NCBI GenBank assembly: GCA_937950065.1
Contig: CALFEN010000037.1
Location: forward strand, 1-7,230
Source: an uncultured bacterium
GTDB taxonomy: Bacteria; Patescibacteria; JAEDAM01; Absconditabacterales; Absconditicoccaceae
Length of the DNA: 7,230 bases
Direction of reading: 5' to 3'
The translations under genes and the position numbers were made by a program. Of this stretch, positions 860 through 6,101 are shown piece after piece. The stretch's first letter is position 1. The number at the start of each line of letters is the position of its first letter. The notes under the pieces were generated by a model that had not been told where the DNA came from, made no database searches, and was given only the letters and a program-made list of their open reading frames with translations.

Positions 860-1510
860 TTAATCAAGATTATCTTTTATCCAATTTATGTCTTCTTGCG
901 CTATTTTCATATTTCTCATTCCTTGTCATACTGGATAGTAGACAGGAAATGTTTTATAAAAAATTTTATTGATTTCAGTAATTTCAAATTTTTTTCTGTA
1001 TAGTCAAACTTGAATATTCTTATTTAAAAAAATGGAACTAACTTGATTTCAGAATGTTATTATTGTTTTAGGTTTTATTTCATCAATTTCCTGCTTCAGT
1101 AATTCTAAATAATCTTTGAATACATTATTATTCAATGGTCTAGCGTCTACTTGAGTCGCTTTTGATAAATTTGTTATGTATATTCAGTTCTTTTTTATTT
1201 CCTGATATAGTGTTTCTGCAAAATTATAATCTCGTTCAGTAGATTTTTTTGACTGACTTTTCTCAAAAATGTTTTTATCCAGGAATCATAGTTGATAAAA
1301 CATTTTCCAAATATTTTTTGTTCAAATCCATTGTGCTTTTAATCATTTCCATTCTTTGTTTGAAGCTACGTTTTTTCATGTAGGATTCATAAATACAAAG
1401 AAAAATTTTGGATTAATAATTTCTCCTCATCCATAAATAGCATCTAGATTTTTATCTCAATGTTTCAATTGTAATCTATCGAATTCTCAAAATAAGGATT
1501 TAATCTGCAT
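860..1510 (-). CDS. Uracil-DNA glycosylase superfamily protein
   Basis: 216 aa with 11 TGA-Gly codons. The order of motifs fits the UDG fold: a first active-site loop FMNPTGKN (40-47) after a hydrophobic strand, YITNLSKAT (111-119), an ITFGNQVS strand/turn (151-158), and YYPVGQGMRN (191-200) where the family usually has a His-Pro-Ser-type DNA-intercalating loop. It would remove uracil or a similar damaged base from DNA as the first step of base-excision repair. No Cys4 iron-sulfur ligands like those of family 4 are visible, and the second motif lacks the usual His, so substrate and activity are uncertain; Asn42 or Asn47 might serve catalysis. The start at 1510 lies about 31 nt after its predicted transcription start. 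The gene ends 20 bases from the Nudix stop, in convergent orientation. Superfamily placement is fairly secure; the subfamily is not. Confidence 0.7.
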
Positions 1511-1634: not shown

Positions 1635-3374
1635 ATGGAAAGACAAGTTTACGAATTCATAGCTGCCCAAACAGGGGAAAAGATAGTTGAACGAAGAAAG
1701 TGCCCAGTCTGTGGGCAGGAGTTTACGATAACAGACAAGGATTTGGAATTTTATTCCAAAATTTCGCCCGTGTTCAAAGGCAGTAAATACGAAATCCCTG
1801 CACCAACATTATGTCCGGATTGCAGACAGCAGAGGAGACTTGCACGAAGAAGTAGAGTGAAACTCTATAAACGCAAATGCGATGCTACAGGCAAAACTAT
1901 AATTTCCATGTTTTCACCTGACGGCTGATATAAAGTATATCATACCAAAATATGGGAAAGCGATTCATGGAATCCCAAGGATTATTGAATGGATTTTGAT
2001 TTTACCCGTTCATTTTTCGAACAGTTTGATGAACTTTTAAAAAATACTCCTCTTCCTCATTTGGCTATTATAGAAGCTACTTTGGAAAATTCCGATTACG
2101 TAAATTGAGCTAATTCTGTTAAAAATTCTTATCTTTCAAGTAATCTAGTAAACAGTGAAAATGTCTATTATTCTGAAGATGTTTATAATTCCGATAATTG
2201 TGTAGATTGCTTATCTTTGACAAAATCTGCGAACTGTTTTGAGTGTGTGAGCAGTATAAATTTATATAACTGTGAATATCTCTATGAATGTGAAGACTGC
2301 AGAGATTCTATTTATCTGGAATTTTGCAAATGATGTAATAACTGTATAGGCTGTGTATGACTTATCAATAAACAATATTGTATTTTTAATAATCAATATA
2401 CAGAGCAGGAATACAAAGATTTGGCAGAGAAATTGATAATACAGGAAATAACCCAGCATATAGAAAAATTGAGATTAGATTTTCCTTATGCTTATGCCAA
2501 AATTATAAATTCAGAAAATGCTTTTGGAAATAATATAATAAATTCTAAAAATATAACTAATTCTTTTGATATAAGTAATAGTGAAAATATAAAAGATTCT
2601 ATATTTGTAGTAGATAATTCCAAAGACTGTCATGATATATCTTTTTGGGGACAAAATATATCTCTTTGCTATGAATGAGCTGCTATATGACTCAGTTCCA
2701 ATAAAGTTTTATTTTCAGCAGAAACCTATGACAATATAAAAAATGCCTATTATTGTTATTTTTGTTATCCCAACTGTTCAAATATATTTGGTTGTGTATG
2801 ACTCAGGAACGCAGAATTCTGTATATTAAATAAACAATATACTAAAGAGGAATATGAAAATTTAGTTCCAAAAATAATTGAATATATGCAAAAAACTTTA
2901 GAACGATGAGAATTTTTCCCTGGTAGTATATCACCGTTTGGCTACAATGAAACAGCTGATAATGAATATTTCCCATTATCCAGAGATGAAGCTATTGCCA
3001 AATGATTTAAATGGCAGGATAAAGAATATCCAATAAATGTGCCTGACTGAATAGAATTAGTAAAATGACAAGATTTGCCTGAAAATATAAACGATGTAGA
3101 TGATGAAATTTTGAAGAAAGCTGTAATCTGTGAAGTAAGTTGAAAACCGTTTAGAATAGTCAAACCTGAACTGGAGTTTTACCGCAAACATTGATTGTCA
3201 TTGCCACGTAAGCATCCAGATATTAGATATCTACGCAGGATTCAAAAGAAACCACAGAAATCATTATATTTGAGAGCTTGCTCAAACTGCAGTAAGCAGG
3301 TAATCAGTGTTTATCCTGCTGACAGTGAATTTAGAATTTACTGTCAAGATTGTTATAATAAAGAGAATTATTAA
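1635..3374 (+). CDS. Zinc-ribbon protein with duplicated Asn/Ser/Cys-rich repeats
   Basis: 579 aa with 14 TGA-Gly codons. The N-terminal zinc-binding region has CPVC (23-26), CPDC (60-63) and Cys82, then a conserved-looking block IISMFSPDGGYKVYH (89-103) and DYGMDFDF (116-123). Residues 151-271 and 290-418 form two related units. Each starts with short N-S-x-N/D repeats suggestive of a beta-solenoid and ends with GCVGL-x-N-x2-(Y/F)-C-I, QYT and EEY/QEY before a helix. A Cys-rich stretch lies at 189-240. The C-terminal part has FRIVKPELEFYRK (506-518) followed by a final Cys4 ribbon (C549, C552, C570, C573). I recall this architecture from CPR genomes, sometimes under an uninformative 'caib/baif family' label; no CoA-transferase signature is visible. 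No signal peptide or membrane helix, so probably cytoplasmic. Function unknown; zinc or nucleic-acid binding is inference. The first 97 codons are GC-richer and contain no TGA. Confidence 0.85.
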
Positions 3375-3399
3375 TAATAAATTTATCTTTCATATCTTT

Positions 3400-3445
3400 T
3401 TCAGTATTTTAAAAACTGAAGTTAATCAAAATAACTATTTTGATT
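3400..3445. terminator. Possible bidirectional terminator between convergent genes
   Basis: Two dyads lie between the zinc-ribbon stop (3374) and the minus-strand operon stop (3471). TTCAGT/ACTGAA (3400-3405 with 3415-3420) has a 9-nt loop. AATCAAAATA/TATTTTGATT (3424-3433 with 3436-3445) is perfect but AT-rich and is followed by TTAG. Neither has a long U tail in the right place, so terminator function is tentative; their position between converging genes is the main argument. Confidence 0.4.
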
Positions 3446-3470
3446 TTAGTAGAATGCCTTATAATTTTTT

Positions 3471-4478
3471 TTAAGATAATCCTTTTTTCTTTTTTTGATC
3501 TTCACTTAATAACAATTGTTTTATTCTTTCTTGTTTAACAAAAAGAGCACCTCAAGCTATAAAGTCAGTTATATCAAGATATTGGTTTTTTATATATTTA
3601 TCATTTAGTCTATACGTCAAAAGGTTGTAAGTGTGACGGGGTATTATTACTTGAAACATCTCGGAATCTGGGAAATATTTTATTCATAATTCTTTGTACA
3701 GTATGTACATTATGGCCGCAAAATGCTTGCAGTCTCATACGCCCAAGTTGAAATAATCGTCTATTGTTTTTTTGTTGGAATATTGTCCATAGGCTACTTC
3801 AACGCGTCCCTCAATTAAGATGTTTTGTAGAAAGACTATGGTGATAGGGTCTTCTAAACTTTCTATCAATGAATATTTAAATTTTTCTTTTGTTTTTCAA
3901 TCTATAAATTTATTTTTCCCCCATAAAAATAACATTTTTTGAGAAGCATCATTTGTTGTTTTTATTATTCTATCAACGAATTTAATTAAATTTTCATAAC
4001 TTTCATTTGTTATCCTACTTTGTTTTAAACTTCTTTTTAAAGATAGAATGTTGTTTTTTCATTTTTCTCAAAATAATATTTCAGAATCCAGTATTTCTGT
4101 CATGAAATCGTACTTCATATGTTTTTTTATTACAGTTCATATGGCATAAGCCATTGCTTCCGGTCAAGTGTATATATTTAAAGAGTTTATATATACAAAT
4201 TCATCTTTAACCTCCTTTAATATCCGGTTGTCATCTGGTCATATTTCGATTTCAGGAACTGATCATACTAATAAAACTTTATTTAGATATTGAGGATTTT
4301 TTTTGATAAGGGATATAAAATCTTTTCTAGTAAACCAATTGTCTCCATAGAACTCTTTAACAGTTTTCATTAATTTCTGTTTTTTTTGAGGAGATAATTT
4401 ATCGTTCAAAAGATCTTCTAAAGCTGGAAGAGAGTTGATATTTAGTTCTCTGGCATATTCTCAAAAATTTTTTTCCAT
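3471..4478 (-). CDS. Transglutaminase-like protein with intact Cys-His-Asp triad
   Basis: 335 aa with 11 TGA-Gly codons. The C-terminal part carries a transglutaminase/papain-like signature: GVGDCKHFAAIMYILYKEL (246-264) with nucleophile candidate Cys250 at a helix start, RHTYNLLTY (281-289) with His282, and YLDITDF (300-306) with Asp302 or Asp305. The Gly just before Asp-Cys (248) is encoded by TGA. The N-terminal part holds FYGDNWFTRKDFISLIKKNP (43-62), shared with the upstream paralogue; the middle is helical and diverged. No signal peptide or membrane segment, so probably cytoplasmic. Known activities of the fold include protein crosslinking, deamidation and proteolysis; which applies here cannot be read from sequence. 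It is the second gene of an operon, starting 7 bases after the paralogue stop with AATAAA one base before ATG. The superfamily call rests on the motif triad only. Confidence 0.6.
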
Positions 4479-4485
4479 ATTTATT

Positions 4486-5502
4486 TTAAGAAATATTTAA
4501 ATTGCTTGTATCTCAATTTTTACTTAATAAAACTTGTTTTTCTATTTTTTTATCCACAAAGAGCTTCCCTCATAACATAAAATCTGCAATATCTATGTAT
4601 TGATTTATTATTGCTCAATTTTTGCTATATGTCAGTAAATTGTAAGAATCCTTTGGACTCAATACTTGAGACATTTGAGTGTTTGGGAAATGTTTTGGTC
4701 AGATTTTTTTGTATAGAGTGTACATTATTGATACAAAATGTTTCTGCTCTCAAACCCCTAGACTGAAATAATCATTTACTGTTTGTTTTCATTCATATTG
4801 TTTGTAAACTATATCTTTGTATCCAAGTCAGGAGATATAAGCAAGAGCTCCACTATTTATGATACTGTCTAAATTCCCTAGGATATATTCTTTAAATTCT
4901 TCTTTGTTCTTGGTTCATATCATAAATTTAAATATACTTAATAATCATTTTCCGATTGCTGTATCTTTTGTATCAATAGTTTTTTGTAAGTAATCTTTAA
5001 AGGTTTTGTAGCTCTCTTCACTTATTTCATTATTTCTTAAAATATTTATAAACTCTGGACTTATCTCGGCATTAAAATTTAATACAGAAATTCAAAAGGT
5101 TAATAGAGAAGTTATAAAATCAAATTTCATATGATTTTTTATGGTTTCAGCTATTGCAAGAACCAAATCTTTTGGAGATTGTTCTCATCACTCTTTTTCC
5201 TTTTTTTCAAAACGGGTTTCTACTTCAGCAATAATTTTTTTGACATTTTCATCGTTTTCAGATCACATTTCAATTTCAGGAGTTACTCATTCCAAAATAC
5301 GCTGATTGAAATATTTCGGATTTTTTTTAACTAAAGCAATGAAATTATCTCTCGTAAAAGATTTATCCTTATAAAAACTTTTAATTTTTCCTATAAGTTT
5401 TTGCCTTTCTTCTTCTGGAATGTCTTTGTCAAAAAGAAAATCAATGTTATCTACGCTGTCAATATTTTGTTTTTTCAAAAAATCATCAAAATTTTCTCAC
5501 AT
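4486..5502 (-). CDS. Catalytically degenerate paralogue of the transglutaminase-like protein
   Basis: 338 aa with 15 TGA-Gly codons, including codon 2. It aligns along most of its length with the next gene: FYKDKSFTRDNFIALVKKNP (43-62), PEIEMG (75-80), a shared His in IKNHMKFDF (121-129), and a C-terminal domain GVGEQKHFVSIMYTLYKK (249-266), KDSYNLLTY (284-292), QYIDIADF (301-308). The triad is lost: the Cys position is Gln253 and the His position is Asp285, while Asp304 remains. The frame is intact and the fold-defining residues are kept, so this looks like a selected pseudoenzyme, not a decaying gene. It is the first gene behind a consensus promoter. A regulatory or scaffolding partner of the active paralogue is an inference from the pairing. 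No signal peptide or membrane helix. Helical insertions at about 90-245 differ from the partner. Confidence 0.65.
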
Positions 5503-5532
5503 TTTTATTTTTTTGTAAATAAAATATATATA

Positions 5533-5560
5533 ATTATACCTATAAAAAAAGTTTTGTCAA
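5533..5560 (-). promoter_or_regulatory. Consensus sigma70 promoter of the transglutaminase-like operon
   Basis: On the minus strand, a perfect TTGACA (5560-5555) and perfect TATAAT (5538-5533) have a 16-bp spacer. The predicted start near 5526 leaves about 24 nt before the ATG at 5502. This is the strongest promoter match in the window and suggests robust basal expression of both paralogues. Confidence 0.75.
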
Positions 5561-5591
5561 AAAACAATCTGTAAAAAATATATTGAAAAAA

Positions 5592-5619
5592 TTGATTAAA
5601 TTATTAAACTATATATAAA
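5592..5619 (+). promoter_or_regulatory. Promoter of the AMMECR1-like gene
   Basis: TTGATT (5592-5597) and TATAAA (5614-5619) are separated by 16 bp. The predicted start near 5626 leaves about 20 nt of leader. An overlapping TATATA makes the exact -10 uncertain. It diverges from the transglutaminase-like operon promoter within the 143-base gap 5503-5645. Confidence 0.45.
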
Positions 5620-5645
5620 AGTTTTTTACTATAGAAATAAAATTT

Positions 5646-6101
5646 ATGCTGGAACAAATAAAAAAAGCAATACTTGAAAAATACTGACCAGAAGAAAAAA
5701 AATGATTTTTTTTGTCCTGATACAATGCAAATTGATTTTTGCTTTTTTCAAAATGAATATTACATACTGATACCTGAATCAAAAAACTTATAGAAACATT
5801 ATTTTTTAAATATGTGGAGCAAAATAAAACTGTAAAAAATAATATATCTTTTTTTATCTGCGATATAGTATCTCAAGTTATAGAGATTACAAATCCGAAC
5901 GACGTATTCAAAGCTTCTATGCAAGAATATGGCGTTGTCCTTGTCAGTACAGATTCCAATAAATCTTGAGTTATTTTGCCAAATACCGAATGAGTAGTAG
6001 ATGCCAAACACGCTATTTTCCTCATAAAACAAAAAGAAAATTTGGACGGCAGGGTAAATATTTATGCATTTAGGACAGATAGGATACAAGTAAATTTATA
6101 A
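5646..6101 (+). CDS. AMMECR1-like domain protein
   Basis: 151 aa with eight TGA-Gly codons. The C-terminal half resembles the AMMECR1 fold: a strand FFICDIVSQVIEITNPNDV (69-87), then EYGVVLVSTDSNKSGVILPN (94-113), matching the family pattern of a Gly-rich strand pair ending in Leu-Pro, then FLIKQKENL (125-133) and VNIYAFRTDR (137-146). The RGCIGT motif of full-length AMMECR1 proteins is not seen, and the protein is shorter than the roughly 180-200 aa typical of them, so it may be a minimal or diverged member. No radical-SAM or MEMO partner is next to it. The usual AmmeMemoRadiSam association therefore cannot be claimed, and the biochemical role is unknown. It has AATAAA four bases before ATG and probably shares a transcript with the small gene 13 bases downstream. 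Cytoplasmic. Confidence 0.5.

Follow-up and report, generated by a model that had tools for sequence, protein, structure and literature searches.

Can an enzyme and its catalytically dead paralog, encoded side by side behind one promoter, work as a pair? The question is raised by two adjacent minus-strand genes on a 7,230-nucleotide stretch of DNA (hereafter the window) from an uncultured bacterium of the Absconditabacterales (GenBank assembly GCA_937950065.1, contig CALFEN010000037.1). The favored answer is an ancient tandem duplication that yielded a cytoplasmic cysteine hydrolase (P0002, the distal gene) and a pseudoenzyme kept by selection (P0001, the proximal gene), most likely joined in a heteromer in which P0001 scaffolds, activates or restrains P0002. 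We infer the catalysis by P0002, the contact between the two proteins and the direction of the regulation, and give the explanation as a whole an even chance.

Two paralogs behind one promoter

Under translation table 11 neither frame of the pair exists, as the proximal gene contains 15 TGA codons and the distal one 11. Frames were read with table 25, in which TGA encodes glycine, and the window then consists of long frames throughout. This code, of the SR1/Absconditabacteria type, is supported by the flanking protein P0006: in its 14 TGA columns, relatives show Gly at 411 of 909 aligned residues, followed by Asn (84), with Trp occurring once. Gly is the most frequent residue in eight of these columns (one a tie with Asn) and not in the other six; the count covers 96 matched stretches from 29 loci, picked from 80 loci as presumed standard-code lineages. 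Once TGA is read as Gly, the coordinates, intact frames and 7-base gap given in a first-pass annotation of the window are correct.

P0001 and P0002 can be aligned end to end (38% identity over 334 columns, 210 bits). The N-terminal motif and C-terminal domain that the annotation had described as common to them are indeed shared, and the sharing is not limited to those parts. Identity reaches 49/85 in the transglutaminase core and 78/248 in the remainder. The residue pairs that had been proposed for the catalytic positions fall in the same alignment columns (Cys250/Gln253, His282/Asp285 and Asp302/Asp304 in P0002/P0001); the Cys-His-Asp triad of Transglut_core (PF01841) is complete in the distal protein and not in the proximal one, so that, as far as sequence can tell, the description of an active-looking and an inactive copy holds. 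The CAG codon of Gln253 differs from the TGC codon of Cys250 at all three bases. P0002 contains no cysteine other than Cys250, and P0001 lacks the residue altogether; as several proteins of the window are poor in cysteine (0 of 216 residues in P0007, one of 151 in P0004), its absence from P0001 means little by itself. Peak 19-residue hydropathy is 1.34 in P0001 and 1.27 in P0002, compared with 2.61 in the neighboring P0005. The hydropathy scan found neither a hydrophobic start nor a strong membrane stretch in the two proteins, which are therefore probably both cytoplasmic.

The copies are old paralogs, since their synonymous divergence (dS 1.63, NG86) is near saturation; the nonsynonymous divergence (dN 0.58) is well under it. 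When neutral substitution was simulated on a frame of the length of P0001, 6 of 2000 runs ended with the frame open at 0.1 substitutions per site, and none of 2000 did so at each of 0.2, 0.4 and 0.8. Because the P0001 frame is open despite the age of the paralogs, dN is well below dS and the core is 58% identical, P0001 is best read as a pseudoenzyme retained by selection rather than a pseudogene; the inactive copy is intact, as first annotated, where the neutral simulation closes such frames. The triad is kept in three of the four known members (P0002 and the relatives P0010 and P0012, described below), so the P0001 branch is the most parsimonious place for its loss, which makes P0001, by its residues, the derived, dead copy.

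Among the aligned columns, P0001 deviates from a residue common to the other three members in eight, the Cys and His columns included, and P0002 does so in 11. Over all columns of 15 alignments, P0001 was never significantly faster than P0002 (strongest case 38 vs 24 columns, p 0.098); in the core it was slightly more changed in 15 of 15 (from 7 vs 4 up to 10 vs 4, p at least 0.18). A slower rate for P0001 (43 vs 20 columns, p 0.005) was dropped as aligner-dependent, with p ranging from 0.005 to 0.9 over the 15 alignments.

Upstream of the pair lies a sigma-70-type promoter (TTGACA-16-TATAAT, 5560-5533 on the minus strand). It had been called near-perfect and is in fact perfect, with 12 of 12 consensus positions; 0.025 such sites are expected by chance per window (400 Markov randomizations). 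A scan of the minus strand from 3300 to 5750 found no terminator-like site. As both genes lie behind this single consensus promoter, P0001 and P0002 are probably made together. Read from the DNA, the locus shows a duplication, a derived loss in one copy, an open frame under constraint and a single upstream promoter.

Fold and relatives of the pair

Predictions support both the fold and the triad order. AlphaFold2 models of both proteins are moderate overall and weak in the strands that bear His and Asp; their secondary-structure order is that of transglutaminases and, together with the matched folds, agrees with a clustering of Cys250, His282 and Asp302. Transglutaminase and LapG-type structures lead the fold lists of both proteins at modest Z, with LapG (4fgp) and a transglutaminase (4xz7) in the leading rows of both and TgpA (6g49) in one, and the label "transglutaminase-like" given at first can be kept as a predicted fold of both proteins. 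Foldseek against the PDB gave nothing at E ≤0.001 (best row transglutaminase 4xz7_B, E 0.17), nor did a search of BFVD by fold, and a search of the PDB by sequence returned one irrelevant row per query (E 0.75 and 0.12). P0002 scores 18.3 bits with PF01841, under the gathering cut-off of 23 bits, and P0001, P0010 and P0012 do not match that family. Other weak family matches fall on helical stretches and were judged to be chance (P0002 with Prefoldin, E 0.01, and NLRC4_HD2, E 0.31; P0001 with DUF1539, E 0.33, and NF049989, E 0.0085; P0010 with Sey1_3HB, E 0.0042; and weaker ones of P0010 and P0012).

Relatives were sought in 353 draft genomes of the class and 379 genomes drawn from the phylum, all of unstated completeness, in which genes may be missed. 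A two-row alignment search matched two of the 353 class genomes at E 0.001 (G081 and G099); the G099 match, which falls on frames of other kinds, was rejected. The relative in G081, P0010 (359 aa), is a single gene between a GGDEF-domain gene and one that, judging by its sequence, presumably encodes elongation factor G. A three-row profile added P0012 (479 aa) from G011 (E 5.5e-4). Both relatives retain Cys, His and Asp in matching columns (P0010 has a single cysteine, Cys266), and their securely alignable part is the core (P0002-P0010 42% over 81 residues, P0001-P0010 37% over 82, P0002-P0012 24% over 103). Searching with a four-row profile brought up no other convincing member among the class genomes (seven at E 0.01, including G011 and G081), and in the phylum genomes only G011, itself part of the profile.

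Weak matches in G013, G010, G099, G342, G146, G291, G284, G242 and G310 (various profiles) were judged to be chance, after reading the frames of two loci (L084 and L095) and from the match row for the others; L095 (G310) holds a 62-aa frame with a Cys-motif-like stretch, too short for the rest of the core. In the protein database, single searches found only the proteins' own versions with TGA as Trp (P0008 and P0009) among 1723 and 1714 candidates, and the one addition from the three-row profile was P0011, a version of P0010 in which TGA is read as Trp (the 7988 most word-sharing candidates were scored). Neither viral contigs, phages and plasmids nor, with the pair alignment, genome contigs yielded a relative.

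The P0012 gene (G011, L136 3278-5797) follows a series of genes for type IV secretion pilin-like proteins, of which two were checked (PF18895); these neighbors possibly hint at a cell-surface or secretion role in G011. The order of G011, a candidate division SR1 bacterium, is taken here to be Absconditabacterales, and the window derives from this order or from a close neighbor of it. Other transglutaminase-core proteins occur in nine of 49 genomes of this order at E 0.1, six of 49 being above the Pfam cut-off; the matches in G039 and G026 appear to be chance. These proteins (L126-L132 and L135) are mostly ~600 to 1100 residues long, some of their frames leave the locus, and their layout is unlike that of the pair. 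Reading of the matched frames showed no close tandem twin beside them within ~2.3-3.4 kb, without a dedicated search.

Competing explanations

The proposed scheme starts from a cytoplasmic papain-like cysteine hydrolase with a transglutaminase core and a long helical insert ahead of the catalytic Cys. An old tandem duplication of its gene would have produced an enzyme (P0002) and a pseudoenzyme (P0001) that lost Cys and His and kept the fold; with one consensus promoter, joint production of both is probable. By analogy with trypanosomatid prozymes, the dead copy of such a heteromer could scaffold, activate or restrain the live one. Going by bacterial transglutaminase-like proteins in general, P0002 is likelier to cleave peptide or isopeptide bonds than to cross-link.

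Several observations weigh against this scheme. The gene pair was found in none of the 353 class genomes, and single-copy relatives in two. The first-pass annotation had named the loss of the pair from related genomes, together with decay of the proximal copy, as grounds for giving up the idea: the pair was indeed not seen in the draft class genomes searched, and the proximal copy shows no decay. Moreover, the two proteins are only 78/248 identical outside the core, and the models are weak where His282 and Asp302 lie.

Two of these points, single-gene relatives and divergence outside the core, would suit P0001 as a retained paralog that works independently of P0002, binding the old substrate or another partner, with the operon as a relic of the duplication. 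However, the adjacency behind one promoter has been kept although dS is near saturation, and the core (49/85) is the best-conserved part of the pair; independence is considered rather unlikely. An elaboration of the heteromer, in which the acidic, non-catalytic pocket of P0001 (Glu252, Gln253, Asp285 and Asp304) acts as a ligand or metal sensor through which P0002 is switched, would make the pair a two-subunit, lineage-specific cysteine hydrolase, and is unlikely.

P0002 might also be a harmful hydrolase, and P0001 the inactive decoy by which it is blocked or titrated, as in inhibitor/enzyme or antidote/toxin pairs. The position of the inactive gene first, the joint transcription and the retention of much of the core in the dead copy would fit, whereas the full-triad relatives occur without a paired inactive copy and no relative was found in the phage, plasmid or viral collections. 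PADLOC gave only a weak match, between P0010 and the model of a TIR effector (15.2 bits, E 0.0017), and those from PHROGs were weak too (P0001 with phrog_9146, a family without assigned function, at 17.8 bits and E 0.0049; P0010 with phrog_33605, E 0.03; P0012 with phrog_22319, E 0.077), with none for P0002 in either; we regard this role as quite unlikely. Were the resemblance to transglutaminases false, the proteins would form a family of their own in which Cys250 is not catalytic, as the weak strands in the models could suggest; the concurrence of Pfam, element order, fold lists and three residues kept in two distant relatives makes this distinctly improbable. Least probable is a new activity or ligand for P0001, with a metal or other chemistry at the acidic old triad site: Glu252, Asp285 and Asp304 with Gln253 and His255, in a similar predicted fold, would allow it, but no homolog with those residues conserved, and no P0001 ortholog, was found in the genomes searched.

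Locus features, known systems and significance

The features of the pair are collected in the table. Three plus- or minus-strand neighbors were also noted. For the 151-aa protein at 5646-6101 (+), relatives were found in 44 of the 49 genomes from G011's order, and a search of 15 genomes matched one, G011. AMMECR1 (PF01871) is matched by four of 14 family members tested (best E 7.3e-06) and not by the copy in the window; possibly, the family is an order-wide, divergent AMMECR1-like protein. The 579-aa zinc-ribbon-type protein at 1635-3374 (+) scores 22.7 bits with zf_Tbcl (cut-off 24). A 115-aa piece of it has relatives in 215 of 255 matching genome-contig stretches, of which the best 80 were kept; many among those 80 are labeled Gracilibacteria, Peregrinibacteria or Peribacteria, in some genomes with several per contig. 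The 216-aa protein at 860-1510 (-) matches the uracil-DNA glycosylase superfamily (PF03167, 36.5 bits) and none of 15 genomes searched at E 0.001. Family 4 uracil-DNA glycosylases carry an iron-sulfur cluster, which is unlikely here because the protein has no cysteine.

Table. Positions of the gene pair, its promoter and the codons at the triad columns (window coordinates)
Feature	Position	Strand	Remarks
Proximal gene, P0001	4486-5502	-	338-aa predicted pseudoenzyme; Gln253, Asp285, Asp304; zero cysteines
Distal gene, P0002	3471-4478	-	335-aa predicted transglutaminase/papain-fold cysteine hydrolase; Cys250, His282, Asp302; Cys250 the sole cysteine
Spacer between the genes	4479-4485	-	7 bases
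Promoter -35 hexamer	5555-5560	-	TTGACA
Promoter -10 hexamer	5533-5538	-	TATAAT; 16-base spacing from -35
Cys250 codon, P0002	3729-3731	-	TGC
His282 codon, P0002	3633-3635	-	CAC
Asp302 codon, P0002	3573-3575	-	GAT
Gln253 codon, P0001	4744-4746	-	CAG; column of Cys
Asp285 codon, P0001	4648-4650	-	GAT; column of His
Asp304 codon, P0001	4591-4593	-	GAT; third triad position kept

Trypanosome deoxyhypusine synthase is reportedly activated by a dead paralog. Trypanosoma AdoMetDC is activated by its own, the prozyme (PMC5201418). The pair resembles both systems in combining a live enzyme with a catalytically dead paralog; those are eukaryotic and of unrelated folds, and their heteromers and activation are proven, whereas for the present pair they are proposed. 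In the open-licence literature searched, no bacterial operon turned up that pairs an enzyme of this fold with a dead paralog. To that extent the pair is not a described system, as the first reading had it, although the general kind is known; differing in fold, operon and host group, it is a variant of that kind. To our knowledge, OTULINL, EPB42 and the Rad4 family are not encoded beside a live paralog in one operon. In PMC10318531 these eukaryotic proteins are, like P0001, inactive members of the papain-like superfamily, across which some inactive proteins scaffold or bind. Within the papain-like classification of that paper, the pair is closest to Transglut_core and LapG-type C93 peptidases (PF06035), which it resembles in the predicted order of the Cys helix and the His and Asp strands; unlike these, P0002 stays under the Pfam cut-off and has ~125 mostly helical residues between a conserved MKYD motif and the Cys. 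In bacterial pseudo-orthocaspases, too, a cysteine-protease fold is believed to persist although both of its catalytic residues have been exchanged for others; theirs is the caspase fold, unlike that of the pair, and the abstract and outline of PMC6426788 mention no operon pairing with a live copy.

Regulation of a live enzyme by a dead paralog has been proven in a few eukaryotic cases, and a bacterial example under one promoter, in which the loss can be followed residue by residue, would be a convenient model. Since the live copy has one cysteine and the dead copy none, catalysis, labeling and partner effects could be cleanly separated. If true, the favored explanation would also assign a function to orphan genes of a bacterial group where many others are without one.
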